From Metabacillus indicus LMG 22858 (GTDB taxonomy: Bacteria > Bacillota > Bacilli > Bacillales > Bacillaceae), in the NCBI RefSeq assembly GCF_000708755.2, contig NZ_JGVU02000002.1, forward strand, positions 1,550,001 to 1,614,000: a stretch of 64,000 nucleotides of DNA. The letters are read 5' to 3'. Shown here in pieces: positions 29,784 to 58,827 of the stretch; the stretch's first letter is position 1; each line of letters starts with the position of its first letter. The notes under the pieces were generated by a model. It made no database searches. It was not told the origin of the DNA and saw only the letters and a list, made by a program, of their open reading frames with translations. Position numbers and translations under genes: made by a program.

Positions 29784-30386
29784 ATGTCTCGTTATACAGG
29801 TCCAAGTTGGAAACTTTCCCGCCGTCTGGGAATTTCATTAAGCGGAACAGGTAAAGAATTAGAAAAGCGTCCATTCGCACCAGGTCAGCACGGCCCGACT
29901 CAGCGTAAAAAACTTTCTGAGTACGGCTTACAGCTTCAAGAAAAACAAAAGCTTCGCCACATGTTCGGTGTGAACGAGCGTCAATTCCGCAACACATTTG
30001 ACAAAGCTGCTAAAATGACTGGTAAACACGGTGAAAACTTCATGATTCTTCTTGAATCACGTCTTGACAACGTTGTTTATCGTTTAGGCCTAGCTCGCAC
30101 TCGCCGCCAGGCACGCCAAGTTGTTAACCATGGCCACATCATGGTTGATGGAAGCCGCGTAGACATTCCATCATTCCAAGTGAAGCCAGGTCAAACAATC
30201 ACACTTCGCGAAAAATCTCGCAACCTTGACATCGTTAAAGAATCAATCGAAGTAAACAACTTCGTTCCTGATTTCCTAACTTTCGATGCTGACAAATTAG
30301 AAGGTACTTTCACTCGTCTTCCAGAGCGTTCTGAAATGCCTGCTGAAATTAACGAAGCTCTTATCGTTGAGTTCTACTCTCGTTAA
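29784..30386 (+). CDS. rpsD: Ribosomal protein S4
   Basis: S4 is a primary 16S rRNA-binding protein of the small subunit. The 200-aa protein begins [16 protein letters not shown] and has the S4 RNA-binding domain at [21 protein letters not shown] 29784 lies nine bases after GGAGGAG; the frame extends upstream only through the leader. The Ala/Arg/Lys-rich composition and codon use fit a highly expressed gene. The prophage begins immediately after its terminator. Confidence 0.98.
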
Positions 30387-30413
30387 GTAAAGTGGTTCTT
30401 AAATAGCCTTTAT

Positions 30414-30458
30414 AAAACCCTAGAAACGTTGATAAAACGGCTTTTCTAGGGTTTTTTT
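30414..30458 (+). terminator. rpsD terminator, left boundary of foreign DNA
   Basis: AAACCCTAGAAA pairs with TTCTAGGGTTT around a 16-base loop and ends in a seven-T tract. Everything to the right lacks the B. subtilis-like gene order, so this is the last clearly host element. Confidence 0.8.
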
Positions 30459-30649
30459 ATTTGTTTTGGTTCTTAGAATAACACATTATAACGTATTGAT
30501 TTGGGGGAGATTGGGGGAGGTTTTGGGGTAATAAAACAAGTGGACAGATCACCTCTCACCTCTTACACCAAATTAATAAAAATTGATTATCAGATTTTCG
30601 CCCTCAATTCTGGTTAATGCTCAGCAAAATGGACCTTTAATACACAAAG
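30459..30649. other. Gene-free left edge of the prophage (candidate attL region)
   Basis: No coding frame is supported. The stretch holds a G-rich near-repeat, TTGGGGGAGATTGGGGGAGG followed by TTTTGGGG (about 30499-30528). The attachment core should lie between the rpsD terminator and the first cargo gene, but it cannot be defined because the other end of the prophage is outside the window. Confidence 0.35.
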
Positions 30650-30680
30650 AAAATGGCAACCTAATATAGGTTGCCATTTT
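30650..30680. terminator. Terminator hairpin at the end of the cargo array
   Basis: AAAATGGCAACCT pairs perfectly with AGGTTGCCATTTT around a five-base loop. It follows the DUF2716-like gene on the minus strand and abuts half of a cassette repeat. Confidence 0.8.
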
Positions 30681-30688
30681 CCGTTAAA

Positions 30689-30710
30689 GCCCCCGATTGC
30701 TGAATAAAAG
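30689..30710. repeat. Cassette repeat, half copy 1
   Basis: GCCCCCGATTGCTGAATAAAAG is the right half of the palindromic repeat that separates the cargo genes. The left half is replaced by the terminator hairpin. Confidence 0.75.
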
Positions 30711-30722
30711 TATACACACCGG

Positions 30723-31217
30723 CTACCCTTTTCTTAATACTTTCCAAAACAAAGATGGACTAACATTTTTAAATGCTTGTAGCAGGTCTGGGCCAAAGAT
30801 AGTTATAGATTTTTCCCAGGGATGACCTAGAATTCCCCAATCTAAATTTTCTTGCAGAAAGAAGTAGTAATCCCCATCAGGAAATACAGGCACTAACCAC
30901 TCATTACATTCAGTCTTCGGAAAATCTAAATGTGGATTTACCCAATAACTAGCGTGGTTCCAATCAAATCCATAAATGAATTCATCTTTTTTTGTTACTT
31001 CTTTGAGATTATGAAGTGTTTTATTTTTAAGATCACTATTCAAAGATTCAAATTGGCTCATATCTACAAGACAATGCGATATATCATAGCTGATGAATGG
31101 GCTCGGAACCACAAAAGAAGGAAACTCAACCGTACTGGGTTTGAATTTAAGTTTTTTGTATATCTTTTTATATAATTCTTTGTCTTCCTTACTTGATAAC
31201 TCGATCCAGTTACTCAT
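30723..31217 (-). CDS. DUF2716-like protein
   Basis: A 164-aa soluble protein of the kind annotated DUF2716 in Bacillus. The C-terminal half is aromatic-rich (WNHASYWVNPHLDF, VPVFPDGDYYFFLQENLDWGILGHPW), which is typical of that family. Function is unknown. AAGGAG lies seven bases before ATG 31217. It is the last gene of a same-strand cargo array and is bounded by repeat copies on both sides. Base composition is AT-rich compared with host genes. Confidence 0.65.
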   Translation of the reverse strand: MSNWIELSSKEDKELYKKIYKKLKFKPSTVEFPSFVVPSPFISYDISHCLVDMSQFESLNSDLKNKTLHNLKEVTKKDEFIYGFDWNHASYWVNPHLDFPKTECNEWLVPVFPDGDYYFFLQENLDWGILGHPWEKSITIFGPDLLQAFKNVSPSLFWKVLRKG

Positions 31218-31276
31218 ATTAGTTCTCCTTGCTCTGTATTTCCTCTAAGTTCCAACTTAAAAATAGAAAGCAATTT

Positions 31277-31304
31277 TCTGCAATCGCCCCCGATTGCTGA
31301 AGAG
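31277..31304. repeat. Cassette repeat, full copy 2
   Basis: GCAATCG-CCCC-CGATTGC is a perfect seven-base-pair hairpin lying between the DUF2716-like and HIT genes. Its right side continues TGAAGAG like the other copies. Confidence 0.8.
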
Positions 31305-31420
31305 CGTTAATAGTAAATCATCACCTAAAATCAAAATGGGGACTTCGATTAAAGCTCTTTTTAGCTTAATAAGTTTTTTTAATCTTTTAAGATAACTACG
31401 TCATTAGTTAAATGATTAAC

Positions 31421-31906
31421 TTATTTATTTAATTCTTTTGTCAAAATGTCAATCGCACCCATTACTTCTTGAATATTTTGTTTGCTATTCATTTCATTTC
31501 GAGCGTGAAGTAGAACAGGTCTAACAGACTCAACAGAGCGACCGAGTTCATACATCCATTCATATCTTGGAACCATCCAAGTATGAAAATGATGAGTTGT
31601 ATCTTCATTGTAAAAATAATAAACGTATTCAATTCCTAATACATCTCTTTGAGCCTTCCTTATTTTTGACAAAACCTTAATATAATCTATCTTTTCTTCT
31701 TCTGTTAATTCATCAAAACATTTGATATGGCGTTTAGAAGCTAATATTATTAGTCCCCTTATTGGATAAGCAACATCTTGATGAGCGTGAAAATACTCCG
31801 TTTCAAGTACCACACCGCCATCAGGTTCAATCATTCCACTTGTTAATGCACAACTTAAACACTCTACTTCTACTGTATTTCCGTTTGATAAAGTTATCTT
31901 TCTCAC
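31421..31906 (-). CDS. HIT-family nucleotide hydrolase/transferase
   Basis: A 161-aa HIT-type protein. The histidine motif appears as THHFHTWMVPRY near residue 95, close to the family HxHxHxx pattern with aromatic substitutions. The N-terminal CLSC and the strand IEYVYYFYNED also fit. HIT proteins hydrolyse nucleoside phosphoramidates or dinucleoside polyphosphates. The start is placed at GTG 31906 with GGGGGG seven bases upstream; the open frame runs upstream to a TTG that lies inside a repeat copy. Confidence 0.7.
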   Translation of the reverse strand: MRKITLSNGNTVEVECLSCALTSGMIEPDGGVVLETEYFHAHQDVAYPIRGLIILASKRHIKCFDELTEEEKIDYIKVLSKIRKAQRDVLGIEYVYYFYNEDTTHHFHTWMVPRYEWMYELGRSVESVRPVLLHARNEMNSKQNIQEVMGAIDILTKELNK

Positions 31907-31947
31907 TGACTTGCCCCCCATATGTCTATGTTCCAAATGGAAACTCA

Positions 31948-31970
31948 TATTCCACAATCCTGCCCAATTC
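31948..31970. repeat. Cassette repeat, variant half copy 3a
   Basis: TATTCCACAATCCTGCCC matches the copy at 34061 and corresponds to the left arm (TTATTCCACAATC) of the palindromic consensus. It lies directly upstream of the HIT gene. Confidence 0.7.
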
Positions 31971-31996
31971 TTAGCTAAAGGGGTGGATTACTATAT

Positions 31997-32026
31997 GCAG
32001 CAATCGCCCCGATTGTTTAATAAGAG
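31997..32026. repeat. Cassette repeat, full copy 3b
   Basis: CAATCG-CCC-CGATTG forms the hairpin core (it reads CAATCGCCCCGATTG), followed by TTTAATAAGAG. It lies between the HIT and Nudix genes, 26 bases from copy 3a. Confidence 0.8.
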
Positions 32027-32045
32027 TTGTCTCTATTAATTTCTG

Positions 32046-32531
32046 TTAGTTAAAAACCTCACTGCACTCGTATCTTGTCAGTCTCTTTTTATGTAACACA
32101 CATTTATGATCCAAACACAATGGATTATTTAGTATGTGGGGTAAGAAGTGTGGAATCATCTCACCCACCCCAAAATTATGATCATCCAATAACCAGGATA
32201 TCTTTTTCCAATCTAAGATGCCTTCAGCTACTCTCCTAGGTGTTTGAAAGACAAAAGTATTAGGGATTTCAACAAGAAATACATACATTCCTCCAATATA
32301 TTTATCATCTACTTCCCAAGAAACAGTACCTTTGTAGTTGATAGAAGTTGAAGAAATATCAATACTTGTTTCTTCCTTGACTTCTCTTATAACACATTCC
32401 AAAGGAGTTTCATTCTCTTCCATCTTTCCACCTACACCATTCCAAAGGCCCTGGGTGGGTGCAAAGTCTCTATTTAGCATTAGGATCTTATCATCGTTTC
32501 TAATAAAACATATCGTTTGTTTGTACACCAT
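32046..32531 (-). CDS. Nudix hydrolase
   Basis: A 161-aa Nudix protein. The Nudix box GX5EX7REUXEE is present as GKMEENETPLECVIREVKEE near residue 37, with Ser instead of Gly in the final position (TSI). The sequence GLWNGVGGK before it is typical of MutT-like pyrophosphatases acting on oxidised or other nucleotides; the substrate is unknown. ATG 32531 (MVYKQTICF) has GGAGG five bases upstream; the 16-codon upstream extension has no such site. It is a stand-alone cargo gene bounded by repeats. Confidence 0.82.
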   Translation of the reverse strand: MVYKQTICFIRNDDKILMLNRDFAPTQGLWNGVGGKMEENETPLECVIREVKEETSIDISSTSINYKGTVSWEVDDKYIGGMYVFLVEIPNTFVFQTPRRVAEGILDWKKISWLLDDHNFGVGEMIPHFLPHILNNPLCLDHKCVLHKKRLTRYECSEVFN

Positions 32532-32630
32532 AGATACCTCCTTCGCATAAAGCTTGTTCCATTTATCTAGAAGAATCACTTAATACCAATTATTTCAAAT
32601 TAAGTCGAGATTAACAATATATATTCCCAT

Positions 32631-32659
32631 AAAAAGAAGACTTATCTTTTCCAGATAAG
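32631..32659 (-). terminator. Terminator after the Nudix-distal cargo gene
   Basis: Minus-strand CTTATCT and AGATAAG pair around GGAAA and lead into TCTTCTTTTT. It abuts half repeat copy 4, the same arrangement as at 30650-30710. Confidence 0.65.
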
Positions 32660-32680
32660 CCCCCGATTGCTTAATAAAAT
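32659..32680. repeat. Cassette repeat, half copy 4
   Basis: GCCCCCGATTGCTTAATAAAAT is nearly identical to half copy 1. It lies between the Nudix gene and the 122-aa gene. Confidence 0.75.
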
Positions 32681-32685
32681 TCTAT

Positions 32686-33054
32686 TTAAAAATGTTCTTT
32701 GAAGATCAGTTTGAAATATGGCTTAAAGTCAATTTCTATCATTTGTTGGGAATCCTCATTTAGAACTGTTAACAAGACACTTGAGTGTTCTTTTTGGTCT
32801 GCTGTAATTTCAAACTTAGATACACGTTTGAGTTCCAATAACGATAAGAATCTTCTTGATTCTCGGTAAGTCACCTGAATTTTTACTTCTCCATACGATG
32901 GAGAAATAGTAACAATAAAGTCTTCTTCACCGTTCGAAAACTGGTATTTCGCTGTATTGTAATAAAATTGCATATCATTTGAGTTATTATCAAATAACGT
33001 AGGTTCACATTCAAATAAAGAAAGTAACTCGCTTTCATCTGGAAATATAGCCAT
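32686..33054 (-). CDS. Hypothetical protein (122 aa) in the cargo array
   Basis: A soluble 122-aa protein with alternating strands (FIVTISPSYGEVKIQVTY, VLLTVLNEDSQQMIEIDF), possibly a small beta-rich domain. ATG 33054 (MAIFPDESELL) follows AAAGGTG by about nine bases; a GTG four codons upstream overlaps that site. No family is recognised. It is bounded by repeat copies 4 and 5. Confidence 0.6.
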   Translation of the reverse strand: MAIFPDESELLSLFECEPTLFDNNSNDMQFYYNTAKYQFSNGEEDFIVTISPSYGEVKIQVTYRESRRFLSLLELKRVSKFEITADQKEHSSVLLTVLNEDSQQMIEIDFKPYFKLIFKEHF

Positions 33055-33127
33055 TTTCTTAAGCACCTTTCAAATTTCTTATTCATCAACCCTACCCAAG
33101 TCTTCAATATAAAAATGATCACACTTT

Positions 33128-33150
33128 GCTGCAATCGCACCCGAAAGATC
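33128..33150. repeat. Cassette repeat, half copy 5
   Basis: GCTGCAATCGCACCCG is the left half of the repeat; the right half has decayed to AAAGATC. It lies between the 122-aa and 111-aa genes. Confidence 0.65.
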
Positions 33151-33189
33151 AATAGAAGTAACAAGAAGATGTTCGTTTATTGTGGAAAG

Positions 33190-33525
33190 TTAACTTGATA
33201 AAAGAGTTTTCACCTTTTCATTATTAAAGTTTTCTTCTAGCAACTTGTAAATTTCGTCCTCAATTTCTTCTCTACGTTCAGCTTCATTTTCATCTTCAGT
33301 TAAAATATATTCATCATCAATTCGTGCTCTGGCTTGTGCGACTTTTATAATTTTTTCAGAGAATTCTTTCACCTGCATTTTCTGTTTTTCATCGTTACTA
33401 TCAATTCTTTCAAGAACAGCTGTATTCACATCATCCAGTAAAGTTATGCCTTTAAAAAGAAGATACATTGCGACAAAAAGTTTTCGCTCTTCTAATTCGT
33501 TAAATTTAATTGCCAGATTACTCAC
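33190..33525 (-). CDS. Hypothetical helical protein (111 aa) in the cargo array
   Basis: A soluble, highly charged, helical 111-aa protein (Glu/Lys-rich C-terminal half). The start is unclear: GTG 33525 overlaps its own GAGGTG stretch, and no other ATG or GTG is close, so initiation may occur slightly downstream at a non-ATG codon. It is followed at short distance by the 155-aa gene upstream of it on the same strand, with no repeat between, so the two may form one unit. Confidence 0.5.
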   Translation of the reverse strand: MSNLAIKFNELEERKLFVAMYLLFKGITLLDDVNTAVLERIDSNDEKQKMQVKEFSEKIIKVAQARARIDDEYILTEDENEAERREEIEDEIYKLLEENFNNEKVKTLLSS

Positions 33526-33564
33526 CTCATAGTTTTTTTGTGAAAAATGGGGTTTATATAAGGA

Positions 33565-34032
33565 CTATTTAAAAGTAATACCTTTATCTTTATACTGCAC
33601 TATGTAGTTGCCGTCAGAGCTCCGTTTATAATACCCTAGATTAAATTCTTCCTTGTTAATTAAGCCTTTTAAATAAACAGGAATAGGAGGGTCTAATATT
33701 AAGTCTGCGATTTCCAGTGGAAAGTTATCTTCATTGGGATTTGGAGTGTGAATATAGACTGCATCTAAAGAAGCGTCGTTTTGATTAAACTCAATCCAAG
33801 ATTGGTATGGTTTTTCAAAAGTGTCCATTTCTTTTACTAAATCCTTATATAAAGCTAAATGTGCATTTGCGTGCTGTTTTCTGTACTTTGGTCTATTTCC
33901 TATTCCAATAAAATCAAGGTGAGTATGCCACAAGTCAAACCACCCATCGTTACTAAAATCTAAGTTGTATTGATCTCCGGACGATCTAATGTCTAATTCG
34001 CGAAAATAACGTTTTTTTCCTCGAAACTTCAC
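33565..34032 (-). CDS. Hypothetical protein (155 aa) in the cargo array
   Basis: A soluble 155-aa protein with an aromatic central region (DGWFDLWHTHLDFIG) and a His/Asn-rich stretch (KYRKQHANAHLALYKDL). The start is placed at GTG 34032, eight bases after GGAG; the open frame extends to a TTG that lies inside the repeat at 34061, exactly as for the HIT gene. No family is recognised. It is the first gene of the array as transcribed. Confidence 0.55.
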   Translation of the reverse strand: MKFRGKKRYFRELDIRSSGDQYNLDFSNDGWFDLWHTHLDFIGIGNRPKYRKQHANAHLALYKDLVKEMDTFEKPYQSWIEFNQNDASLDAVYIHTPNPNEDNFPLEIADLILDPPIPVYLKGLINKEEFNLGYYKRSSDGNYIVQYKDKGITFK

Positions 34033-34060
34033 AATTCTCACTCCAATTTTAACTGAACCC

Positions 34061-34092
34061 TTATTCCACAATCCTGCCCTTTAATGGAATAA
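34061..34092. repeat. Cassette repeat, variant copy 6
   Basis: TTATTCCA (34061-34068) pairs with TGGAATAA (34085-34092) around ACAATCCTGCCCTTTA. The left side is the same as in copy 3a. It marks the right limit of the cargo array, next to the lysis genes. Confidence 0.75.
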
Positions 34093-34216
34093 CCATTATT
34101 TGTAATGATACCATGTAATTCCCTTACAATCATTGAAAAATCATCAAATTATTTTGCTCGCCCATTTAATATTACAGAAGAACGAAGCCTCTCTAATATG
34201 TAGAAAGGCCTCCAAA

Positions 34217-34993
34217 TTATTTTACAATCTCGTAGTGCCATCCTAAGTTTTTTAACCATTTTTCATATTCAGATCTCATTGAAGGACTAAGACCACCTGA
34301 TAACATTCTTGGATTACCTGGCTGCTCAAACTGGAGACGTCCCCACCAGTTTTTTTCAATGAAGTATTCAGATACAATTTTGCACGATTCTGCACTTAAC
34401 CCTCCCGTAAGGATTTGCACTGATTTGTTTTCTGTTTTTGCGGCATCCGGCTTTATATGCCAATTATCATAATAGTTCTTAACGTCTTTAATAAACTGTG
34501 CCCAAGTAACCCCATTAGGTTTCAGCCAGCTTTCAGGATCTGACCGGCGACGAGGATCAAGCTTGCTGTGGGGAACAATCTTTTTCAGTGGATCCAAACC
34601 GTATGTGCGGCAAAGGTATGCATGATACCAAACATAACGGTCATAGGCTTCTTTGAAGTTTCCAGTACGGCATAACTCAACACCGGCAGCTGTATCATTG
34701 GCATCTTCACCAAATAACTCATTGTCTTCAGGGTTTCCGAAAAGGTTATGCCAGGCTTTTTCATTCAGAGGGATGATTTCTAAAATCTTTTGGCTGTCAA
34801 TGAACGTGTGGGCAGAGGCGTTTGGCTGCTGATTGTTGAAGTAATTAAAATGATCATCTGCATCAGCTGAATTATTGGCCGTTTCGTGAGACACAATAAA
34901 TTCAGGTTTACCTTTGACAAGTTTCTGGCCAGAACGGGCCTTGCCTTTGTTAATATATTTGCGTTCAATAGTATACTTTTTTGAAATGGACAT
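34217..34993 (-). CDS. Endolysin: N-acetylmuramoyl-L-alanine amidase
   Basis: A 258-aa Amidase_2 enzyme that cuts the bond between MurNAc and L-Ala to lyse the host. Zinc-ligand regions are EFIVSHETANNSADADDH near residue 35, ASAHTFIDSQKILEIIP, and PHSKLDPRRRSDPESW near 140. The C-terminal 60 residues (VQILTGGLSAESCKIVSEYF...GWHYEIVK) form a SPOR-like wall-binding domain. ATG 34993 has GGAGGG seven bases upstream. It is the last gene of the lysis cassette xhlA-holin-amidase. Confidence 0.92.
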   Translation of the reverse strand: MSISKKYTIERKYINKGKARSGQKLVKGKPEFIVSHETANNSADADDHFNYFNNQQPNASAHTFIDSQKILEIIPLNEKAWHNLFGNPEDNELFGEDANDTAAGVELCRTGNFKEAYDRYVWYHAYLCRTYGLDPLKKIVPHSKLDPRRRSDPESWLKPNGVTWAQFIKDVKNYYDNWHIKPDAAKTENKSVQILTGGLSAESCKIVSEYFIEKNWWGRLQFEQPGNPRMLSGGLSPSMRSEYEKWLKNLGWHYEIVK

Positions 34994-35035
34994 GTGTATT
35001 CCCTCCAAATAAAACAGCCGCCATTATGGCAGCTG

Positions 35036-35278
35036 TTATTTTTTTAATAAGTTTTGAGCTTGAAGTGCTTTCTTCTGAATTTGACCTTGCTTGCTAATAA
35101 ACGTGTTTTTCCAGATGGCGTAGAGATTGATAACCAATGCGGCAAAGGCGGCAGCTGCGAATACAAACGCATTAATGCTTTCTTCTGTGAACCAGTCAAA
35201 TGTGATGCCAATTGTGCCAAAAAAGAAAAGAAGGGCCGTTAGAAACCCTCCAAGTAAAGTGAATGTATCTTTCATCAT
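35036..35278 (-). CDS. Phage holin
   Basis: An 80-aa protein with two membrane helices (residues 8-25 and 35-55) and a short basic C-terminal tail (KKALQAQNLLKK), the layout of SPP1/phi-LC3-type holins. It makes membrane lesions that release or activate the amidase. GAGGAGG lies eight bases before the ATG. It sits between xhlA-like and amidase genes. Confidence 0.88.
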   Translation of the reverse strand: MMKDTFTLLGGFLTALLFFFGTIGITFDWFTEESINAFVFAAAAFAALVINLYAIWKNTFISKQGQIQKKALQAQNLLKK

Positions 35279-35279
35279 G

Positions 35280-35537
35280 TTAAATTCCTCCTCTTATTGC
35301 TGTAAATACAATGGCGATTACGCCAGTTATGGATGCTACAATAATGGCATTTGTGATGGATCGTCTAAGCCATTTTGTATCTTCTTTAATTTCTTTCAAG
35401 GTGTCTTTGATGTCTTTAATGTCACGTTCATGGAAGGCTGTCACCTTTTTCAATTCGTCGATTTCCTCTTTGTGTTTGCCTTGTTGAGATTTTAAATCAT
35501 CAATTTCTTTCTGGATGGCTTGTTGCCAAAGATCCAC
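35280..35537 (-). CDS. xhlA: XhlA-type lysis protein
   Basis: An 85-aa haemolysin XhlA-family protein: an N-terminal coiled coil (WQQAIQKEIDDLKSQQG) then one C-terminal membrane helix (AIIVASITGVIAIVFTAI). In PBSX, XhlA works with the holin to cause lysis. The start is GTG 35537 with GGAGGGG six bases upstream; the longer open frame runs into a terminator hairpin. The TAA is next to the holin start. Confidence 0.88.
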   Translation of the reverse strand: MDLWQQAIQKEIDDLKSQQGKHKEEIDELKKVTAFHERDIKDIKDTLKEIKEDTKWLRRSITNAIIVASITGVIAIVFTAIRGGI

Positions 35538-35572
35538 GGTAATCCCCTCCAATTTGGGCGCCCCCCCTAAAA

Positions 35573-35602
35573 GCCAAAACTCCAAGCGCTTGGAGTTTTG
35601 GC
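35573..35602. terminator. Perfect 30-bp palindrome, probable terminator
   Basis: GCCAAAACTCCAAGC and GCTTGGAGTTTTGGC form a 15-bp perfect inverted repeat without a loop. It separates the tail genes from the lysis cassette; T/A-rich flanks lie on both sides. Confidence 0.65.
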
Positions 35603-35617
35603 AATAAAAAAAGCCTG

Positions 35618-35851
35618 TTAGGCTTCGTTTTCTTTGTTTATTTGTTTTCTTAGCAAGGCGACTTCAGAAACTAGTTCATTCTCTCGTTTTGCTGATTCTT
35701 CTGCCTGCTTGATCAGAAAATCATTTTCTTCTTGCAGCTGGGTGTTTTTTTCTTCTTGTTCTTTACCGAGCGCGAAAAATAGCGCTCGTTCGTCAGTCAA
35801 CCGAACAATTTGATTTTTTAAGTCTTCAATTATAAATCCCCGTTTATCCAT
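35618..35851 (-). CDS. Coiled-coil phage protein (77 aa)
   Basis: A Glu/Gln/Lys-rich 77-aa protein predicted to be one coiled coil from residue 5 to 74. GGAGA lies before ATG 35851, and the ATG overlaps the end of the preceding small gene. It lies between tail fibre genes and lysis genes, a usual place for small tail-associated proteins. Function is unknown. Confidence 0.7.
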   Translation of the reverse strand: MDKRGFIIEDLKNQIVRLTDERALFFALGKEQEEKNTQLQEENDFLIKQAEESAKRENELVSEVALLRKQINKENEA

Positions 35852-35996
35852 TGAAAGGTTCTCCAGTCAGGTGGCCAAGCCCCTCATCGACTAAAATTTC
35901 TTTTACCTGGGGTTTCAATAGGTCTGGCACTTCTGAGTACGACCATTTCCCCTTCATGATATAGGTGGCAAACAACATCGCTAACACATCACTCAA
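35844..35996 (-). CDS. XkdX / CD1375-like short phage protein
   Basis: A 50-aa protein starting at TTG 35996, eight bases after GGAGGA and overlapping the stop of the upstream gene. The core YIMKGKWSYSEVPDLLKPQV has the pattern of XkdX/CD1375-like proteins found after tail fibre genes in Bacillus and Clostridium phages (a short helix, then a V-P-x-x-L-K turn). It overlaps the next gene by eight bases. Function is unknown. Confidence 0.7.
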   Translation of the reverse strand: MSDVLAMLFATYIMKGKWSYSEVPDLLKPQVKEILVDEGLGHLTGEPFNG

Positions 35997-36282
35997 CTCC
36001 CATTCCTCCGAAAATCATGTTTGTTAATTCTAATATGGCCATAGAGTTCATTTCTTCAGGTCCCGGATCTCTCTGAGAAGCGAGGTTCTCGTTTCTTTTT
36101 CTCTCGACTTCATCAGATACCAATCCTTCAATCCAATCACCCCTTTCAAAGTCCCATTTTGGCTCAAAAAAACCCCGGTCTCCCCAGGGTTTCACGTGAT
36201 TTTCTGGAACTGGTTCATAGTCTTGCAAAAGCACAGAATCAATGATTTTTCCGTCTGAATCAACAATAATGTATTCCAGCAT
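35989..36282 (-). CDS. XkdW-like tail protein
   Basis: A 97-aa protein with the layout of XkdW-like proteins: an N-terminal strand pair (MLEYIIVDSDGKIIDSVLL), a Pro/Trp-rich middle (FEPKWDFERGDWIEG) and a C-terminal helix. It follows the tail fibre gene and is probably a fibre-associated or chaperone-like protein. GAGGTG precedes the ATG. Confidence 0.65.
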   Translation of the reverse strand: MLEYIIVDSDGKIIDSVLLQDYEPVPENHVKPWGDRGFFEPKWDFERGDWIEGLVSDEVERKRNENLASQRDPGPEEMNSMAILELTNMIFGGMGVE

Positions 36283-36291
36283 GTCTCACCT

Positions 36292-39983
<3,692 letters not shown>

Positions 39984-39993
<10 letters not shown>

Positions 39994-41438
39994 TTATCCC
40001 TCCATATAGCTTCCACAGTTGCCGCGCTTGGTGGATTTACAGCCAGCTGCGTTTCACCTACACCGAAGGGGAAGAAGCTGCCACCAAATTCTTTTATGTC
40101 GTTTCGGGATTCACCATTCACCCGAATTTCTTTTTCCTTGTGATCAATTTCAATAACGTCCCCCGCGTCTGCAATATAAGGAATTTGGACATCGGTAGGT
40201 TGATTGATACGAAAGGCTTTTATGTCATAAATTGAAGCAGCTGCGGCCTTTCGAGTTCCAAGCTGCCCAACATGAACGGCAATTTGAGACACTTGCTTGT
40301 TGAAAATGGAATCTTCGTCTAAAAACGTCACGGTTCTTCTTGTATGATGTTTGCCGGTTTTTGAATCAATTTTCGCGATATAGGCTGTCCATTTCTTGCC
40401 TATCCGGGATATGCGAAGCATGCCGTAAAAGTTATTCCAACTTTCTCGGGCATCCCCATATTCACTTAGAAGAAAGTGATTGATGGTATTGTCACCTATC
40501 CTCATCTCTCCTGCGACTGCCGAAATTGAACTTGATGTATCTTTTAGAGCCATTTTTGCTATGGCCTTATTGGCATCATCCAAGAGATAGACCTCAACTC
40601 TCCCCACAAGGTCACCCTTGCCATTTTGCAGGCCGACCAATGCATCTACCTTGAAATCGACAAGAGGGCCGTTCGGGACACTTGTCTTGATGGCCGGACC
40701 ATGCCAGGCGCTTCCAGTGCCATATCCGGAAGCCTGAAACTTGGTTGAATCCGAAACCATGGTCCCGGCGACTACTCCTCCGTCCACAAAGCTAGCCGTG
40801 CTCCATCCGGTTAAATTGTTGCATTGATGCCATAGAAGGCGCTCTTCTTTCACAAAGGGGACTTCCTTTTCTAAATCTACTGGCTCCCCAAGGCGGATGT
40901 AAGCATCTGGTGAGATGATGTCTAATAGAGTGATAGGTTCCAAGATGGTCGCACGAAAAAGAGGATAGCTGTCTGCAGTACCATGATTGACGATAATATC
41001 GTTCACAATAGAACCAATGGGATCGTTAATAATTTGCGTATTTTCCTGTCCATGACTATGAGAATCAGGAATTAAGATGGCGAAAGAGCCCTTTCCGAAA
41101 CGAAAGAGCCTTTCGAGGTCTGCAGCACCGTCTGGCACTCCATAATACATATGAACAGGATCCTCATCAAAAATGAGGGGAACAGCTTCTTTTCTCGGCC
41201 TTAGCCAATACGCAATCTGTCTCTTTAAGTCGTGTAGGTGAATAGGAGAATCTGCTTTAATCCCGATTTCAATGGCAAATGCCAGTACATCAAGATTCGC
41301 CCCTTCCAGGTATGCACCGTCTCTGTTCGGAATGGTGATAAAACGATTAATGACAGGGGCCCTGAGTGGTTTAACTGATTTAACCATGACATGGAAAGTT
41401 GAACTATGAATCCCGTCAAAAATTAATCCTCCGCTCAT
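39984..41438 (-). CDS. Distal tail protein (Dit) with an inserted domain
   Basis: A 484-aa siphovirus tail protein. The N-terminal 190 residues match the Dit/sipho_tail family (GIHSSTFHVMVKSVKPL, IPNRDGAYLEGANLD, then the galectin-like part). Residues about 200-420 are an insert with a lectin/laminin-G-like beta composition, and the last 60 residues return to the Dit ending (KEIRVNGESRND). Dit joins the tail tube to the tip; such inserts usually bind host carbohydrates. It overlaps the tape measure gene by four bases. Confidence 0.82.
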
Positions 41439-44400
41439 GTTATCAGCCCCTTGAAGTCTAATCCGAATTTGTCTTGAAGGTTCATTTCGTCCCTTATAGG
41501 CTTGGCAAGAACCTTGGCAATTGGCGTCTTTTCAATATCAATGTGCACAAGAACGTACTCAGGGTGCCCTCCGGCTGCGGCAACATCTGCCGTGCCTCTT
41601 GATCTGGAAGGGCTGTACGTTTCGTCCGAATCTCCAATATTTGCTCTCATTGGCACCTGGACAGCTGTCATTCCTGCCATGGAATTTGAAACTCTGGAGG
41701 CCAGGGAAGACATGGCCCTTTCAAGAGGGTGTCTCGCGTTCTCGATGGAGTCTCCAATCGGTCCAGCAAAGTCCATTCTATGAATGTCACTCAATGGTCC
41801 TCTTTTCGCCGGAGAAAACGGCCAGAAATCCCGGACAGCTCCGACGATGTCTTCCACTTTTCGAAGAATTTTCCCTTTCATTGCAGAAAGCCCGTCGATC
41901 GCACTTTGAATAATGGCCTTCCCACTGGCGTATAGGTCAATGTTAAAGGCACTCTTGATATTGCTCATGGCGCTTCTCACGGTGTCCCATGCCTGGTTCA
42001 TTTTAGAGCGAATGGTATTGACAGTCTCAGAGAATTTGCCTGAAACAGAGGACACGATGCCTGATGCCGCATTCGTGATCGTTGAGCGAATGGAGCTCCA
42101 GATGGATGTAACCGAAGACTTTACATTGTTCATTGCTTGCTGAATGCTGTTTCTCACCGCATCAAACTTCTGATAGGCTCCTGTTTTAATAGAGTCCCAA
42201 ACGGAGAATATAGAGGTTCGTATTCCGTTCCATATTTCTTGGGTTTTTGTTCGTGCATTTGTCCAGGTATTCGTGAAAAAGGTTAACACACTGTTCAAAA
42301 AGGATTTTGTCGAAGTAATCATGTTTGTCCACGTCTGGGAAAACCATTTTGCGATATTGATGAGAAAGGTTGTGGTACTGGTCAGCATGTTCGTCCATGT
42401 CTGAGAAAGCCAAGTGGCTAAACTGGTGAGAAAGGCTGTTGTACTGGTTATTACACTAGTCCACGCCTGTGAGAACCACGTGATCATACTGGTGAGAAAG
42501 GTTGTGATACCGGTGAGCATGCTAGTCCACATCTGTGAGAACCATGATGAAAAGGCTGTCCAGGCAGCAATCGCCGTGGTCACTATGTTTTCCCACGTCA
42601 TTGAGAAGTACGTTTTTACAGCTTCCCATATGAGAATGGCTTTTTCCTTGACTGTATCCCAGTTTTGATAGAGCCATACTCCTGCGGCCACTAACGCCCC
42701 AATCGCCACCACAACGCCGGCAACAATGCCCACAAGAGCGCCGACACTAATCCCAAGCAGACCGGCTGCTGTTGTGATACCAGCAAAAATTGGCGCAAGA
42801 GCCAATAAACCTGCGGCTAAAACTCCGACTGCGGTGGTCACGGCGACGATGGCAGCTGCGAGCTCTGGATTCTTCGAGATCCACTCAGCCACTTTCGAAA
42901 TCATACTGGCCACAACAGCCAAAACCGGGGCCAGGGCGAGCATCAGATCAGAGACAGCTGTTTTCATTTGTACCATTGGATCCGCATCTAACGTATCCAT
43001 TTGTTCTTGAAGACCACGGGTATTTTGAGCTGTTTTGTCAGCTGCAGTCGCGACTCCCTGAAAAACAGAAATCATATTCGCTCCCTGATCTTCCCACTTC
43101 GTACCGAAAACCTTTGTTGCCAGTTCATTCTTTAATTCTTTATTGTCAATGCCCTCTAACCATGTTGAAACCTCACTCATGGCTTTGGAACCTTCTTTTC
43201 CGCCTGCCGCGACTGCTTTGCCCCAATCTTGAAATTTCTTTGCGGAGATTCCGGCATCTTCAATTAATGGCTTTAAAGCCTTCGGCACTTCAAGGCCGAA
43301 ACCTGACATCGTCAGCCGGGCTTCTTTTACACCATCGTTCAAGTTATCGATGTTCCACGTTTTCGTATCGATTCCGGCTTCAAAAATGGCTTGTATTTCT
43401 TTCGCGTCGAAGCCAGCAAGCTGCATTTGAGTTCCATATTCGGAAATCGTATCAAGCTGCTCGGGTGGGAATCCTGCTTTCAAAAGGGAATTTGTCAGCG
43501 CAATCGCATCTTCATTGGTGATTTTCAGAGAGGCCGCAATCTCATTGGTTTCCTGGATCAGCTCGTTAAAGTCCACCCCGGCATAGGAGGCCGCAACGGT
43601 TCCGGCCATTTTTACAAGGGAAGCATTCTGTTCGTCGGTTGCATTCTTATTGAGTGCCCACTGCCGTCTGATTCCTTCAAGGGCTGCCTCCCCGTCTATT
43701 CCATACGCTTCAATCTGCTTAATGGCTTCTTTCACTGAGCCAATCGATTCAGGGGGTATTTCCATGGAGAGCTTTATTTTGGTATCAAGCGAAGAGGTAT
43801 CAAGCGCTTGTTCAACGGCGCCGGCCAGACCGCCACCGACCACTAATGCCCCGGCCACATTTTCCAGGCCAATGCCGACACCTTCTACGGCCTCCTCTGT
43901 ATCCTGCAGGTCCATCTGCAGACGCTGAATATCCCATCGAATGTTATTGATGGAATTTCCGGAATCAATAGAGGCCAACGTGGTTCGAAGCTGTTCAATA
44001 TCACCGTTCGCTCCAATAGCCTGACGTCCTATCCGTTGAAAAGCATATTCCAGATCCCGGGACGTAGCCGAGCCATTTTGGATGGCTGTCACTAACCGGT
44101 TGCCAATCACGTTTGCGTAGTCCTGAACAGAGGTTCCCGTTGCTTCAAAAAAGGCACCCAATTGACGGGTGCCTTGTCCAACTTTCTCTTGTTCTCTTGC
44201 CATATCCGTCATTGCTTGCTGATAGGTTTGCAGCTGCTGCTCGGTTTGCTGTAATTCACGGCGGAAGCCGCGGTATTGTTCCTCACCAATCGTTCCGGCT
44301 TCAAATTGTGCCTGCACCTGGGCTTCAGCTGCTCGTAATTGTTCGAGCTTTTGCGTTGTAGAGCCTATACTTTGAGTTAAAAGTTCCTGCCTTTGAGCCA

Positions 44401-44557
44401 GTAATTCAGTATTGTTCGGGTCGAATTTAAGAAGTCGCTCCACGTCTTTCAGTTCCTTTGCCAAGTCTTTGCTTCGCTGATTGACGTCTCTCAAAGCGCC
44501 CTCCAAGCCAACCGTATCATGACCAATTTCAATCGTAATCCCTTTAATTCTGCTCAC
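41435..44557 (-). CDS. Tail tape measure protein
   Basis: A 1040-aa protein that sets tail length. It starts GTG 44557 after AGGAGGTG. The N-terminal 250 residues are coiled coil, the middle has hydrophobic helices (AIVAVTTAVGVLAAGLLALAP), and then 22-residue tandem repeats (pattern WFSQxWTxMxTSTTxFLxxx) follow, before a helical C-terminus. It lies between chaperone and Dit as in all siphoviruses. No lytic domain is visible. Confidence 0.92.
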   Translation of the reverse strand: MSRIKGITIEIGHDTVGLEGALRDVNQRSKDLAKELKDVERLLKFDPNNTELLAQRQELLTQSIGSTTQKLEQLRAAEAQVQAQFEAGTIGEEQYRGFRRELQQTEQQLQTYQQAMTDMAREQEKVGQGTRQLGAFFEATGTSVQDYANVIGNRLVTAIQNGSATSRDLEYAFQRIGRQAIGANGDIEQLRTTLASIDSGNSINNIRWDIQRLQMDLQDTEEAVEGVGIGLENVAGALVVGGGLAGAVEQALDTSSLDTKIKLSMEIPPESIGSVKEAIKQIEAYGIDGEAALEGIRRQWALNKNATDEQNASLVKMAGTVAASYAGVDFNELIQETNEIAASLKITNEDAIALTNSLLKAGFPPEQLDTISEYGTQMQLAGFDAKEIQAIFEAGIDTKTWNIDNLNDGVKEARLTMSGFGLEVPKALKPLIEDAGISAKKFQDWGKAVAAGGKEGSKAMSEVSTWLEGIDNKELKNELATKVFGTKWEDQGANMISVFQGVATAADKTAQNTRGLQEQMDTLDADPMVQMKTAVSDLMLALAPVLAVVASMISKVAEWISKNPELAAAIVAVTTAVGVLAAGLLALAPIFAGITTAAGLLGISVGALVGIVAGVVVAIGALVAAGVWLYQNWDTVKEKAILIWEAVKTYFSMTWENIVTTAIAAWTAFSSWFSQMWTSMLTGITTFLTSMITWFSQAWTSVITSTTAFLTSLATWLSQTWTNMLTSTTTFLINIAKWFSQTWTNMITSTKSFLNSVLTFFTNTWTNARTKTQEIWNGIRTSIFSVWDSIKTGAYQKFDAVRNSIQQAMNNVKSSVTSIWSSIRSTITNAASGIVSSVSGKFSETVNTIRSKMNQAWDTVRSAMSNIKSAFNIDLYASGKAIIQSAIDGLSAMKGKILRKVEDIVGAVRDFWPFSPAKRGPLSDIHRMDFAGPIGDSIENARHPLERAMSSLASRVSNSMAGMTAVQVPMRANIGDSDETYSPSRSRGTADVAAAGGHPEYVLVHIDIEKTPIAKVLAKPIRDEMNLQDKFGLDFKGLIT
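42281..42544. repeat. 66-bp tandem repeats in the tape measure gene
   Basis: Four in-frame units of 66 bp have conserved Trp codons at 42346, 42412, 42478 and 42544. They encode 22-residue repeats. Unit number may vary between related phages and alter tail length. Confidence 0.8.
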
Positions 44558-44571
44558 TGTCTCACCTCCTG

Positions 44572-44969
44572 TTAAAACGCGTCAAAGTCATTCTGATTGG
44601 CCTTGCGTATTTGCTTCTTCGGCTTTTGCATGTTTAGGTATTCGTCAATATAATCCAGGCACATGCCCACCGTCATGTCTTCGAGATCGTCTTTGGCAAG
44701 ACCGACTTTTTTACATAAAAGAAGGAACATGTCTGTGGAAACGCCTTCCCCATCCGATGTTCCTTCGTTGTCTTTTATTTTTTTTTTCCTTGAATGCTAT
44801 GAGTGAGCAGGTCCTGGGTCTCAGAGATTACATCGACCAGAGGGAACTGTTCAAACTGATCCAGCCATGTGATCGGATCCGGAATGGATTTATCTGCCGT
44901 CTTGGCCAGCACCCATGTAAAGTTATAGAAAAGATCAAAATCAATGGACTCAATAGACGCGATGTCCAC
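44572..44969 (-). CDS. Tail assembly chaperone fusion (gpG-gpT type) by -1 frameshift
   Basis: The gpG-like frame reaches GGA AAA AAA AAA TAA. Its A10 run (44778-44787) is an A-AAA-AAA slippery site. A -1 slip continues with ATA AAA GAC and stays open to TAA 44572-44574. The extra segment (MFLLLCKKVGLAKDDLED ... RKANQNDFDAF) has the ending typical of gpT-like chaperone extensions just upstream of the tape measure. No other start or ribosome site serves this frame, so frameshift fusion is the natural expression route. The N-terminus of the protein appears truncated. Confidence 0.75.
44775..44969 (-). CDS. Tail assembly chaperone, short form, apparently N-terminally truncated
   Basis: A 64-aa product from GTG 44969, six bases after GGAGAGG. 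The part FDLFYNFTWVLAKTADKSIPDP and LVDVISETQDLLTHSIQGKKK matches the second half of gpG-like chaperones, which normally have about 100-130 residues with an N-terminal beta region. That region is missing. The gene starts inside the truncated tail tube gene. The chaperone binds the tape measure before tail assembly. Confidence 0.65.
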   Translation of the reverse strand: MDIASIESIDFDLFYNFTWVLAKTADKSIPDPITWLDQFEQFPLVDVISETQDLLTHSIQGKKK

Positions 44970-45234
44970 TGATTTCCTCTCCAAGTGCATCAATTGCGAA
45001 TTGTTCCGGGATATTCGCAATGTTGAGAGTTCCGTCATACCCTTGATTGCTGTTCGTCACATAGTACAGAAGGTTGTCCGCATAAAATTCACTTAGTTCT
45101 CCACGCGGATCCAGTGTAATTTCAACCCCACCGCGAATCCGGATTGGCGTTTCATACGTGATGGTACCTGCAGTCTCTGTATATGGCGCATAATGGACGT
45201 TCTCTAAACCAAAGGTCACTTTGTTTTCGTTCAT
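44950..45234 (-). pseudogene. Major tail tube protein, truncated at the C-terminus
   Basis: The 94 residues (MNENKVTFGLENVHYAPYT to LGEEI) match the first half of phi13-type major tail proteins, which are usually about 190-200 aa. After residue 88 the frame ends in SGHRVY and a stop, where the family would continue into the second half of the beta-sandwich. The missing 3' part and the missing 5' part of the next gene meet at about 44,970, which points to one deletion. The tail tube is probably not functional. Confidence 0.75.
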
Positions 45235-45236
45235 TG

Positions 45237-45566
45237 TTAAATCAACCTCACATCATAAATTTTTTGAAAGAGCTGTTCAGAAGGGATGAACACTTCATCC
45301 GGAATATAAGGAATGGAATGCTGATCGAGAACCTCTTCAAGCATGGCTTCAATAGCCAAGTCCTTTTTGTTCGTATAAAGTTCAATGGAAACGTCATCTA
45401 TCTTCTTGAAGACCTTGTTATCTGCCATGAAATGAGGAGATGCATTCACCATGTAACAAATATAAGGAGGTTCAGGGACGGGGCTGTTTTCAGATGCCGT
45501 AAAATGCGAATAAGCCACCGGCAAACCGGTCGCTTCCAGGATGGCTTTCAACTCAATGATCGTCAT
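45237..45566 (-). CDS. Tail completion / tail terminator protein
   Basis: A 109-aa protein in the position of the tail terminator (gpU-like). It has a mixed alpha/beta pattern, with VPEPPYICYMVNASPHFMAD, a central helix with acidic residues, and IYDVRLI at the end; this PYICY segment is common in such minor tail proteins. It overlaps the HK97 gp10-like gene by four bases. Terminator proteins cap the tail before head joining. Confidence 0.7.
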   Translation of the reverse strand: MTIIELKAILEATGLPVAYSHFTASENSPVPEPPYICYMVNASPHFMADNKVFKKIDDVSIELYTNKKDLAIEAMLEEVLDQHSIPYIPDEVFIPSEQLFQKIYDVRLI

Positions 45567-45919
45567 TCACGGATCGCCCTTTCCACATCGTCAATAAATT
45601 CCCTGAATACCTTTTCCTCCACTGGCTGAATATGAACTTTCGCCGGGGTCCTGCCGCCGTTTCTGTTGGCATGTCCTTTTTCAAGCAAATGGGTCAGCTG
45701 ATAATCGGTTTTATTATGAACGATTCTCTTCTTGCCGACCTTTTTCACACGCCACCCTTTTCGGTAACTCCCCGTAAGCTTTGGACTTGTGGTCTTCAGT
45801 TCTGAAACAGCATCCTTTGATACTCTTTCTTTTATCACTTCAATTTCTTGCTCAACTTCGTTCGTATAGTCACGCAAAACCTGCGTAATCTGATTGGCAA
45901 TTTGGTCAATACTAACCAC
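45563..45919 (-). CDS. HK97 gp10-family neck/tail protein
   Basis: A 118-aa protein of the HK97 gp10 family: an N-terminal helix, the segment TTSPKLTGSYRKGWRVKK, LLEKGHANRNGGRTPAKVHIQP and a C-terminal helix. It joins head and tail. The start overlaps the head closure gene by eight bases. Confidence 0.88.
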   Translation of the reverse strand: MVSIDQIANQITQVLRDYTNEVEQEIEVIKERVSKDAVSELKTTSPKLTGSYRKGWRVKKVGKKRIVHNKTDYQLTHLLEKGHANRNGGRTPAKVHIQPVEEKVFREFIDDVERAIRE

Positions 45920-46253
45920 CTGCCCTCACCTCGCAATACACCTCTGTATATCCATCTGTTCGCTGAAAATGCCGGTATGCAGTATACGTTGCGTCCTCAA
46001 ATTTGAGTTTCTTTTCATAATCGTACTCATCAGAATCAATCAACAAAACGATTTGAGGTTTATGGTTCAGCTGGCCAGCTACTGAAAACTCTGCCCGGCT
46101 GATGCTAATCTTGGAACAAAAGACTTGTCGTTCAATCGGTGTAGAAACGTTCTGGTTTAATTCATCCTTGACCGTATGCATTGAAAGCAACGAACAAACC
46201 TCGTCCAAGGAAACATAAGGGCTGCTTCCAAGACTGCTTTTAAGTGATGGCAT
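45912..46253 (-). CDS. Phage head closure protein
   Basis: A 113-aa protein matching head closure (head-tail joining) proteins: REVFCxKxSISxxEF-like ERQVFCSKISISRAEFSVAG, YEKKLKFEDATYTAYRHFQR and TDGYTEVYCEV at the end. It plugs the connector after DNA packaging. The start ATG 46253 has GGAAG five bases upstream and overlaps the connector gene by 14 bases. Confidence 0.85.
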   Translation of the reverse strand: MPSLKSSLGSSPYVSLDEVCSLLSMHTVKDELNQNVSTPIERQVFCSKISISRAEFSVAGQLNHKPQIVLLIDSDEYDYEKKLKFEDATYTAYRHFQRTDGYTEVYCEVRAGG

Positions 46254-46533
46254 CTGGTCTTCCTGCCTTCTGTATCAATCTATTGTTTATACGCAGCTTA
46301 AGATTTTTAGATAAAGGAACGTCTTCTTGGCGTTTGCGATAACTCCAGGCGGCGTAATCCACGGTAAGCATTTGATCCCCCACATTCACGAAATCCAGGA
46401 CAATCCCGGTCCGTTCAATTTCTTGCTGCGCCGACTGAATGAGGGTAAGAAAATAGGCATCCCTCAACGTGTGAGTGATGCCTAGATCAAGCTTCAGCAA
46501 AGCCAATAAATTCTCTGTGATTTGTTCGTTCAT
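46240..46533 (-). CDS. Head-tail connector (gp6-like adaptor)
   Basis: A 97-aa helical protein like HK97 gp6 (DNA packaging adaptor): an N-terminal helical segment, VDYAAWSYRKRQEDVPLSKN, and a C-terminal NRLIQKAGRPDA. It forms the ring below the portal. Confidence 0.85.
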   Translation of the reverse strand: MNEQITENLLALLKLDLGITHTLRDAYFLTLIQSAQQEIERTGIVLDFVNVGDQMLTVDYAAWSYRKRQEDVPLSKNLKLRINNRLIQKAGRPDAIT

Positions 46534-46544
46534 GGAGCACCGCC

Positions 46545-46784
46545 TTATTCTTTAGGCTTTTTCTTTCTGGCCGGCGCTTTCGGTTTAGGATCCGGCTGCT
46601 CACTTTGTTCAGTGGCTTCGGTTTCTGGAACATTTGTATTTCCAGAATTGTCTGCATCCGCAATAAAGCCGCGTTGCTCCAGATAGGCAATGCGTTTATC
46701 ATCAGCTGTTTCATAGAAAGAGCCCGCATTGTAACGGGCCCTTGTTTCTGCATCAATAAATGGCTTGATTACTTTGTTTTTCAT
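46545..46784 (-). CDS. Small head-associated protein (79 aa)
   Basis: A 79-aa protein with an ordered N-terminal half (IKPFIDAETRARYNAGSFYE, RIAYLEQRGFI) and a low-complexity Glu/Pro/Lys-rich tail (DPKPKAPARKKKPKE). It lies between capsid and connector genes, where many phages carry such a protein. GGGAGGA is upstream of the ATG. Role unknown. Confidence 0.75.
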   Translation of the reverse strand: MKNKVIKPFIDAETRARYNAGSFYETADDKRIAYLEQRGFIADADNSGNTNVPETEATEQSEQPDPKPKAPARKKKPKE

Positions 46785-46797
46785 CCTTTATCCTCCC

Positions 46798-48063: not shown

Positions 48064-48635
48064 TGTTTCAATCGCTCCTTTAATTGGTGTTTACGCTGAT
48101 CGAGCTGACGCTTTTGGTGTTGCTCTATTTCCGACTTCCGAGCCTGGACGCCCGTTTCTTCATATGCCGGAAACGTACAGACAGAAACTTCATGAAGGTC
48201 CACTTTTCGGATGGTCCACTTGACCGAACCATCTTCACGAAAATCTGTGTCTTCTTTCAGGATGTTGAATCCGAAACTGCACTGGTCCACATCCCCTCGC
48301 TTTACCCGTTCATAGATGTTAACTGCGTCAGAGTCATTGGGGTTAATGCGAATCTTCCCCCATAGACCATGGCTGTCAGCCTTCAATTCAAGGGTTCCGG
48401 ATTTGTTCCGGCCAAGGACAAGGGTTGTATCGTGATTGATTAGACCGCGAATATCATTTCCAAGCGTTTCATTGAACGCTTCAGGACTCAGCTCCTCATA
48501 GGCGCCTGTCCACAATTCAGTGGCGCGATTGAACACAGCAAAATATCCCTCTATCACCATTTCCTCTCCATCGACAGCCCGGGTCTTTAATTCTGTTGAG
48601 ACGCTCCTGGTTTGACGGCCCTTAACTCTACTCAT
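48054..48635 (-). CDS. Prohead protease, HK97 family
   Basis: A 193-aa U35/S78-type serine protease that matures the capsid. Catalytic-region blocks are [22 protein letters not shown] with the His, and [10 protein letters not shown] with the Ser. ATG 48635 has GGAGG eight bases upstream, while an upstream GTG lies inside that site. It overlaps the portal gene by eight bases. Confidence 0.92.
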
Positions 48636-49824: not shown

Positions 49825-49827
49825 GCA

Positions 49828-51555: not shown

Positions 51556-51899
51556 TTCAGGCTGCTCAAAACACTAGCCAGCGATGAGGTTTTTTTCTTT
51601 TCAATGGGGGAATCGCTGGATTTCGGATTAAGGCAGAGACGATCGGAGTATGCCAAAATGTCCTTCCGAAGTGATTCCAGGGATGCAACAATCGGGGATT
51701 TTTTTGCACCTCCTGCAGCAGTATATGACTCGTATTCATATCCCTCATCTTTGAATTGCTCATTCAACCGGTTGTATTGAAAAACAAGTTCGGCATAGAT
51801 GTCAATCAAGCGATTATACTGGGGTTTATGCACTCCGAGCTCTTTCATATCCGAGATCGTTTTTCGTTTAATCGTTTCTTTGGACGGCAGCTTCGTCAA
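51552..51899 (-). CDS. Terminase small subunit, P27 family
   Basis: A 115-aa P27-type small terminase subunit that recognises the packaging site. It has the family core [20 protein letters not shown], then [20 protein letters not shown] and a flexible tail. It lies directly upstream of TerL, with a likely packaging region upstream of it. Confidence 0.88.
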
Positions 51900-51910
51900 C
51901 GCCTTCTCAC

Positions 51911-52358: not shown

Positions 52359-52384
52359 TGTTTCACCTCAAATAAAAAGACACC

Positions 52385-52936: not shown

Positions 52937-53012
52937 CTTTCAATTTACAATTCCACAACTAAGAGGATTTACCTCTTATAATGACGAATAATGTAAAAAA
53001 AGAGGTGAGAAC

Positions 53013-58810: not shown

Positions 58811-58827
58811 ATTGATTAATTCCTTCC

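Follow-up and report, generated by a model that had tools for sequence, protein, structure and literature searches.

In integrons, an IntI-type integrase, which has an extra insertion in its catalytic domain, is encoded together with the array, attI comes with a Pc promoter from which promoterless cassettes are expressed, and cassettes are exchanged at a point between the G and the TT of the sequence GTTRRRY. The dif modules (pdif) of Acinetobacter plasmids consist of genes flanked by short Xer sites (11-6-11-like) and are shuffled as units; they use the host recombinases XerC and XerD, and their sites alternate in orientation. Repetitive extragenic palindromic (REP) elements and the bcr repeats of the Bacillus cereus group are short palindromic intergenic repeats. 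In Firmicutes, integrons are reported to be very rare, with one complete integron and a few clusters of attC sites lacking integrases (CALIN) (PMC9024848). We analysed a stretch of 64,000 nucleotides (the window) of Metabacillus indicus LMG 22858 (contig NZ_JGVU02000002.1, positions 1,550,001 to 1,614,000), in which six small genes of one strand and copies of a palindromic repeat form an array. The initial annotation had proposed a recombination-based capture of cassettes, which is supported by the clustering of arrays, the turnover of cassettes, their recurrence beside new neighbours, and a linked recombinase. The array is best explained, with a probability of about 0.83, as part of a site-specific gene-cassette system which is integron-like in action, but built from different parts. 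A search within openly licensed PMC papers did not retrieve a published description of such a system.

A simple site consists of the left arm TTATTcAaCAATC, a core GGGGGC or GGGCAG, and the right arm GATTGttGAATAA; compound sites of about 78 bp comprise two simple sites around a short hairpin. In the genome to which the window belongs, the core (≤1 mismatch) matched nine times, in just three clusters, as compared to no match of the reversed control pattern. Longer half-site patterns (≤3 mismatches) yielded 7 matches versus 0 and 21 versus 2 in the controls, adding array starts and single copies elsewhere. One cluster of this genome (L038, 6981–14290) contains ten plus-strand open reading frames (ORFs) of at least 115 aa, whose products include two P-loop kinases and YxiG-like, DUF4279, Nudix, AHSA1, and DUF6843 proteins. 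Among 80 genomes of the family, the pattern CAATCGGGGGCGATTGCWGCA (≤2 mismatches) was found in all seven Metabacillus genomes and in none of the other 73; the seven-genome genus is taken as Metabacillus, with G045 to G048 linked to M. dongyingensis, M. idriensis, Bacillus sp. PAMC26568, and a strain labelled Peribacillus frigoritolerans F-D2. The array G048 C17 extends over about 31 kb, with 38 profile matches between 70 and 101 kb, and a 362-kb plasmid of M. dongyingensis also bears arrays. After the Metabacillus arrays had been turned so that most sites were on the plus strand, and minus-strand matches no more than 30 nt from a plus-strand match had been dropped as mirrors of the palindrome, 190 site matches were counted on the array strand and six on the opposite strand. 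The longest ORF between neighbouring sites, which have a median spacing of 650 bp, is located on the array strand in 94 of 105 intervals. Seven array starts bear the sequence TTATTCCATTAAAGGGCAGGATTGTGGAATAA with 0–9 mismatches (none in L040 and G048 C8, one in G048 C17, three in L039, five in L041, nine in L038); six of them are preceded by the AT-rich leader ATGGAAATA, while the copy in the window lacks it.

Alignment of the arrays with each other gave 70 pairs of at least 200 bp, many of which correspond to single cassettes with unrelated neighbours. In the initial annotation, a conserved order of the six genes across all relatives had been named as a sign against capture. Homology may end sharply at the core, as in GTTAAA/GGGGGCTTATC versus CAATC/GGGGGCTTATC, where the slash marks the break. 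For breakpoint counts, alignments of at least 180 bp and at least 82% identity were considered; ends with >55% outside identity or <40 outside columns were dropped, and four non-array repeat alignments (L038 18741; L040 5366 twice; L040 5368) were excluded. The 82 homology ends retained are not independent, as some cassettes recur. They were counted first against the GGG motif only, and then against the sites called with the profile. In the latter count, 17 ends had a called core no more than 6 nt away in either sequence, against 1.9 expected after shifting the positions; for 15 ends this held in both sequences, against an expectation of 0.3.

Gain or loss of cassettes at the repeats, to be looked for according to the initial annotation, is supported by the sister genomes G000 and G050, which differ in cassette content at a common array locus (L039/L185). 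The flanks of this locus are common to both genomes at 93–95% identity. Each genome has a start-type site, the two being similar over some 45 bp as far as GGGCAG, and homology resumes at the last site; between the two, no common cassette was detected at E 1e-15. A Nudix cassette of 97.9% identity resides in different arrays of G000 and G050.

A gene coding for a tyrosine recombinase of 280 aa is located inside the G048 C17 array, and a 95% identical copy lies between sites in another region of G048. Its best relatives of solved structure are XerA (4a8e and 5hxy) and XerD (1a0p), and its score with the NCBIfam XerA model, 218.3, is just below the cut-off of 220. The AlphaFold2 model has a mean pLDDT of 85.1 and a pTM of 0.62. 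Residues R138, K162, H229, H255, and Y264 are invariant in 27 aligned recombinases, and R232 is kept in 26 of them. Relatives (E up to 1e-60), mostly 49–81% identical where full length, occur in 82 of 397 genomes of the order Bacillales, representing 43 of 135 genera, and in 16 of 299 genomes of the class. The 39 sequences taken as family members group in a single clade (support 100/100) that excludes two host Xer types, which are present in all seven Metabacillus genomes and which we presume to represent XerC and XerD; the assignment of these names is our own.

The recombinase is associated with the sites. Around 20 recombinase genes, the half-site profile matched 144 times in 390.9 kb, as compared to 14 matches in 260 kb of 13 control regions, and the full site profile (E up to 2) gave 85 matches versus four. 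Three or more half-sites were present at 16 of the 20 loci. The loci were picked by hand from the 82 genomes for family spread, the controls were taken from 13 of the same genomes, and palindrome mirrors were kept in these counts. At L225, L227–L233, L237, and L241, most sites have the same direction as the recombinase gene. At L235, L236, L238, L242, and L244, most sites are opposite to the gene, as the sites of integrons are to intI.

In G247, G296, and G378, which belong to one genus (g16), the recombinase gene occupies a block some 1.1 kb long, with identities of 95.3% and 91.7% to G247 and no homology next to it. This block begins with C/GGGCG in all three genomes and ends in or just after GGG, suggesting from sequence comparison that the recombinase gene can also take the form of a cassette. 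The recombinase blocks of a second genus agree at their left ends without a clear core, and have blurred right ends. Broken or split copies among the matches listed are G045:C2:212290-213084, G079:C38:32386-33049, and G057:C1:1534665-1535503; the fragments in G045 and G079 sit among cassette sites, which is consistent with repeated loss. As to the linked recombinase that the initial annotation had marked as worth looking for, related genomes possess it, but no intact copy was found in the genome of the window, which has seven tyrosine recombinase matches.

The distribution of sites was surveyed with a model (R1) trained on 43 sites, mostly from Metabacillus and two of them from the window. At E up to 0.01, three or more sites were found in 28 of 29 genomes of the genera having the recombinase or its fragments among the matches listed (g1, g3, g6), as opposed to one of 51 genomes of the other three genera. 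In the surveys of the order and the class, 11 or 15 candidates were scored per genome, so that the following counts are lower bounds. At least 231 of the 397 genomes of the order have a site match, comprising at least 66 of the 82 genomes with the recombinase and at least 165 of the 315 without it (Fisher P = 2.6e-6). In the class, at least 34 of 299 genomes have a site match, including, among those of other orders, at least 7 of the 11 that bear the recombinase.

A number of observations weigh against a site-specific cassette system with a dedicated recombinase. No called core is present within 6 nt on either sequence at 65 of the 82 breakpoints, and counting GGG alone gave a weak result, with 8 of 82 ends at this motif in both sequences (controls, 1.4–3.1%). 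At L039/L185, the 100–250 bp just upstream of the start site differ as well, and at a second sister locus, L042/L187, the sequences differ inside common flanks, but none of the four breaks inspected is on a site. The block common to the two recombinase copies of G048 has its right end at a core, but not its left end. Few or no half-sites occur at four of the 20 recombinase loci (L226, 2; L234, 2; L240, 0; L243, 1), one control region has five, and sites in the absence of the recombinase are common, as the count of at least 165 of 315 genomes indicates. Six of the seven Metabacillus genomes, that of the window included, lack an intact copy of the 280-aa protein among the matches listed. Turnover was compared between species rather than between strains of one species. 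Several of these points would fit ordinary recombination, homologous or illegitimate, between dispersed short repeats, in which case the recombinase would be no more than cargo: similar repeats flank the cassettes, breakpoints are frequently off the core, as are the four at L042/L187, and many genomes have sites without recombinase. This explanation nevertheless appears unlikely to us in view of the strong excess of breaks within 6 nt of the core inside short, diverged repeats, and of a recombinase family which is linked to the sites well above controls and is core-bounded in three genomes. Simple dispersed repeats of the REP or bcr type, likewise short, palindromic, and intergenic, were ruled out. 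The sites mostly form co-oriented clusters which bound varying genes, with cassette turnover, and breaks gather at a fixed core; the even spread through the genome that the initial annotation had named as a contrary sign was not seen.

The resemblance to integrons, also noted in the initial annotation, extends to several traits. Cassettes are co-oriented, as counted above, and mostly consist of a single gene followed by a palindromic site; a start-type site is located ahead of the first cassette; tyrosine recombinases, arrays without integrase, and plasmid carriage are found in both. The compound site of about 78 bp has inverted outer arms, many of which contain ATTCAAC/GTTGAAT, fitting the RYYYAAC/GTTRRRY boxes. 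True integrons, with IntI acting on folded single-stranded attC sites, or CALIN remnants thereof in Bacillota, are nevertheless very unlikely as an explanation. The linked recombinase scored 105 bits with the integron-integrase model (integrase_gron; cut-off, 265), and in a phmmer search IntI4 (2a3v) aligned to it over aa 203–267 only. Sharp homology breaks end at the GGG core of a dif-like site, about 5 bp from the GTT box, and not within GTTRRRY. The system is therefore integron-like, but not a strict integron. As to recognition of attC as a folded single strand, through which the arms would covary, the 43 sites point both ways: covariation of the arms is in small excess (score 0.182 versus 0.157 when shuffled, 8 of 500 shuffles as high), but arm pairing is barely above that of shuffled sequences (74.2% versus 72.6%, 16 of 500 shuffles as high). 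The system also differs from integrons in that the recombinase is Xer-like and can have its own core-bounded block, several arrays occur per genome, one array is located inside a prophage, and some sites possess terminator-like hairpins. The least probable alternative is that the sites are served by host XerC/XerD or another recombinase, in the manner of the Acinetobacter dif modules, which are also genes between short Xer-type sites shuffled as units. Both host Xer types are present in all seven Metabacillus genomes, and, among the matches listed, an intact 280-aa protein is missing from some genomes with arrays. However, the arms are unlike the dif site of B. subtilis, and the sites have a dedicated recombinase in their midst, which also occurs in a core-bounded block. 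In contrast to the oppositely oriented sites bounding dif modules, the sites described here are direct repeats, and they occur on chromosomes, a plasmid, and a prophage. Although XerA and other simple Xer-type recombinases are closest to the 280-aa protein in sequence and fold, its family is separate from the two host types, patchy in distribution, and found among cassette sites.

The array of the window (Table 1) contains all repeats given in the initial annotation, from 30689 to 34061; those listed as separate copies at 31948 and 31997 are, however, two halves of one compound site. Six genes are indeed present, but no site was seen between the 168-aa and the 111-aa genes, so that they occupy five intervals. 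Of the families assigned, DUF2716 and Nudix are firm, but HIT remains below the cut-off, and three genes (168, 111, and 126 aa) have no Pfam family above it. Three half-sites are joined to terminator-like hairpins, as the initial annotation had said of some copies. In contrast, the TTG start inside the repeat, taken as a sign of insertion, is a product of mechanical ORF listing and no evidence of insertion. A profile search detected four sites of the window with E values of 2e-12, 5.2e-9, 4.1e-8, and 3.5e-5, which are not independent, as the profile was iterated on matches including these sites themselves; likewise, both compound sites belong to the training set of the covariance model (CM). 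Within the window, the 16-bp core by itself is a weak signal, with two matches at ≤3 mismatches versus a shuffled mean of 0.46, and 7 of 100 shuffles as high. The array region has five terminator-like sites (shuffled mean, 1.7), two of whose stems start exactly at the GGGGGC core. An Rfam scan of window positions 29000–35500 (E up to 1) gave no match to a known RNA element, and scans of L038 and L078 gave two unrelated sub-threshold matches only, both in L038 outside its array.

Table 1. Coordinates of the cassette array and the surrounding prophage (numbering of the window)
Feature	Position	Strand	Basis or remark
Array: 32-bp start-type site, six small genes, two compound sites, three hairpin-joined half-sites	34092 to 30648	-	
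Start-type (attI-like) simple site TTATTCCATTAAAGGGCAGGATTGTGGAATAA = TTATTCCATTAAA-GGGCAG-GATTGTGGAATAA	34061..34092	-	copies at other array starts
First cassette interval	33190..34071	-	two ORFs, 168 aa (33565-34071) and 111 aa (33190-33525); no Pfam match
Compound site, ~78 bp; unit 1 core GGGTGC, unit 2 core GGGTAG	33078..33155	-	nhmmer E 5.2e-9; CM E 2.3e-8
Cassette gene, 126 aa, no family above Pfam cut-off	32686..33066	-	ORF list; Pfam sub-threshold only
Half-site TTATTAAGCAATC-GGGGGC merging into terminator-like hairpin	32636..32677	-	half-site pattern, hairpin scan
Cassette gene, Nudix hydrolase family	32046..32579	-	Pfam NUDIX, 53.4 bits
Compound site, ~78 bp; unit 1 CAATC-GGGGC-GATTG, unit 2 GGGCAG-GATTGTGGAATAT	31946..32023	-	nhmmer E 2e-12; CM E 3.1e-8
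Cassette gene, HIT-like	31421..31957	-	below Pfam cut-off (16.4 vs 21.5 bits)
Half-site CTTCAGCAATC-GGGGGC-GATTGCAG + hairpin	31266..31304	-	core pattern, hairpin scan
Cassette gene, DUF2716	30723..31217	-	Pfam, 150.8 bits
Last half-site TTATTCAGCAATC-GGGGGC + 16-pair terminator-like hairpin	30648..30707	-	half-site pattern, hairpin scan
Prophage attL core, 20 bp, 3' end of rpsD	30367..30386	+	exact direct repeat, TTGAGTTCTACTCTCGTTAA
attR copy, 1.5 kb beyond the window	65478-65497		beyond 381-aa integrase gene; same TTGAGTTCTACTCTCGTTAA
Prophage (~35 kb in all), part from attL to window end	30387..64000	.	ends at 65497

The 20-bp direct repeat TTGAGTTCTACTCTCGTTAA likely marks the ends of a prophage, and because its second copy is located beyond the window, the array lies inside this prophage, just within its left end and next to an amidase gene. 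A second direct repeat of 19 bp occurs just inside both ends (30510 and 65393). In the sister genome G050, rpsD is followed by 173 bp of homologous sequence, perhaps a remnant, but by no such insertion. Besides the full-length integrase at the right end, the prophage contains a tyrosine recombinase-like ORF of 180 aa (58828–59370). Viral contigs gave no exact match to one site pattern, and the 78-nt site was without match in phage records; among plasmid records, one gave matches, in 14 places. PADLOC analysis of ten cassette proteins resulted in three matches to generic models, namely PDC-S07 for a Nudix protein and VakA for two kinases.

Some further loci were observed alongside the arrays. 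On the G045 plasmid NZ_OK052578.1 (272587–297413), genes annotated as metG and catA (type A chloramphenicol acetyltransferase) adjoin cassette sites, according to annotation only. G049:C3, possibly an array-bearing plasmid, has cassette sites at 14153, 15352, and 20929 and a tyrosine recombinase match at 31546. In L040, a gene coding for a 714-aa tyrosine recombinase and a second ORF (6663–9252) are located close downstream of a lone start-type site (10016–10047) and one small ORF; in this single case, we take the recombinase to be Tn554-like and its companion to be TnpC-like.

In the mechanism we propose for the cassette system, a cassette reaches from one GGG core to the following one and holds a single gene or a few, laid out as right half-site (at times with a terminator-like hairpin starting at the core), gene, and left half-site TTATTcAaCAATC. 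Exchange at the core of two dif-like sites (~13-6-13) is most likely carried out by a dedicated tyrosine recombinase of the Xer type, about 280 aa long; cassettes would thereby be excised, inserted, and shuffled. The recombinase gene, as a cassette, would come and go, leaving arrays devoid of recombinase like those of the window's genome, and phages, as in the window, and plasmids, as in M. dongyingensis, would move arrays between cells. We infer such transfer, along with the catalysis of the exchange by this protein, the direction of insertion, circular intermediates, and all aspects of expression. Since only one of the seven Metabacillus genomes has an intact recombinase, the arrays of the window's genome are probably remnants or mobilised in trans.

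We lean towards regarding the system as a third, independent class of recombinase-driven cassettes beside integrons and dif modules. It would have no fixed platform; rather, a recombinase-cassette would invade arrays, shuffle them, and get lost. What remains would be arrays across the Bacillales as well as in some other Bacilli, carried by prophages and plasmids. If the reading as an integron-like cassette system is right, Bacillales have their own widespread counterpart of the integron, with sites in at least 231 and the recombinase in 82 of 397 genomes. The system would explain how many orphan small genes spread in these genomes and would allow them to be annotated as cassettes, and may serve as a recombination tool and as a natural test of how gene-capture platforms with a mobile recombinase evolve.

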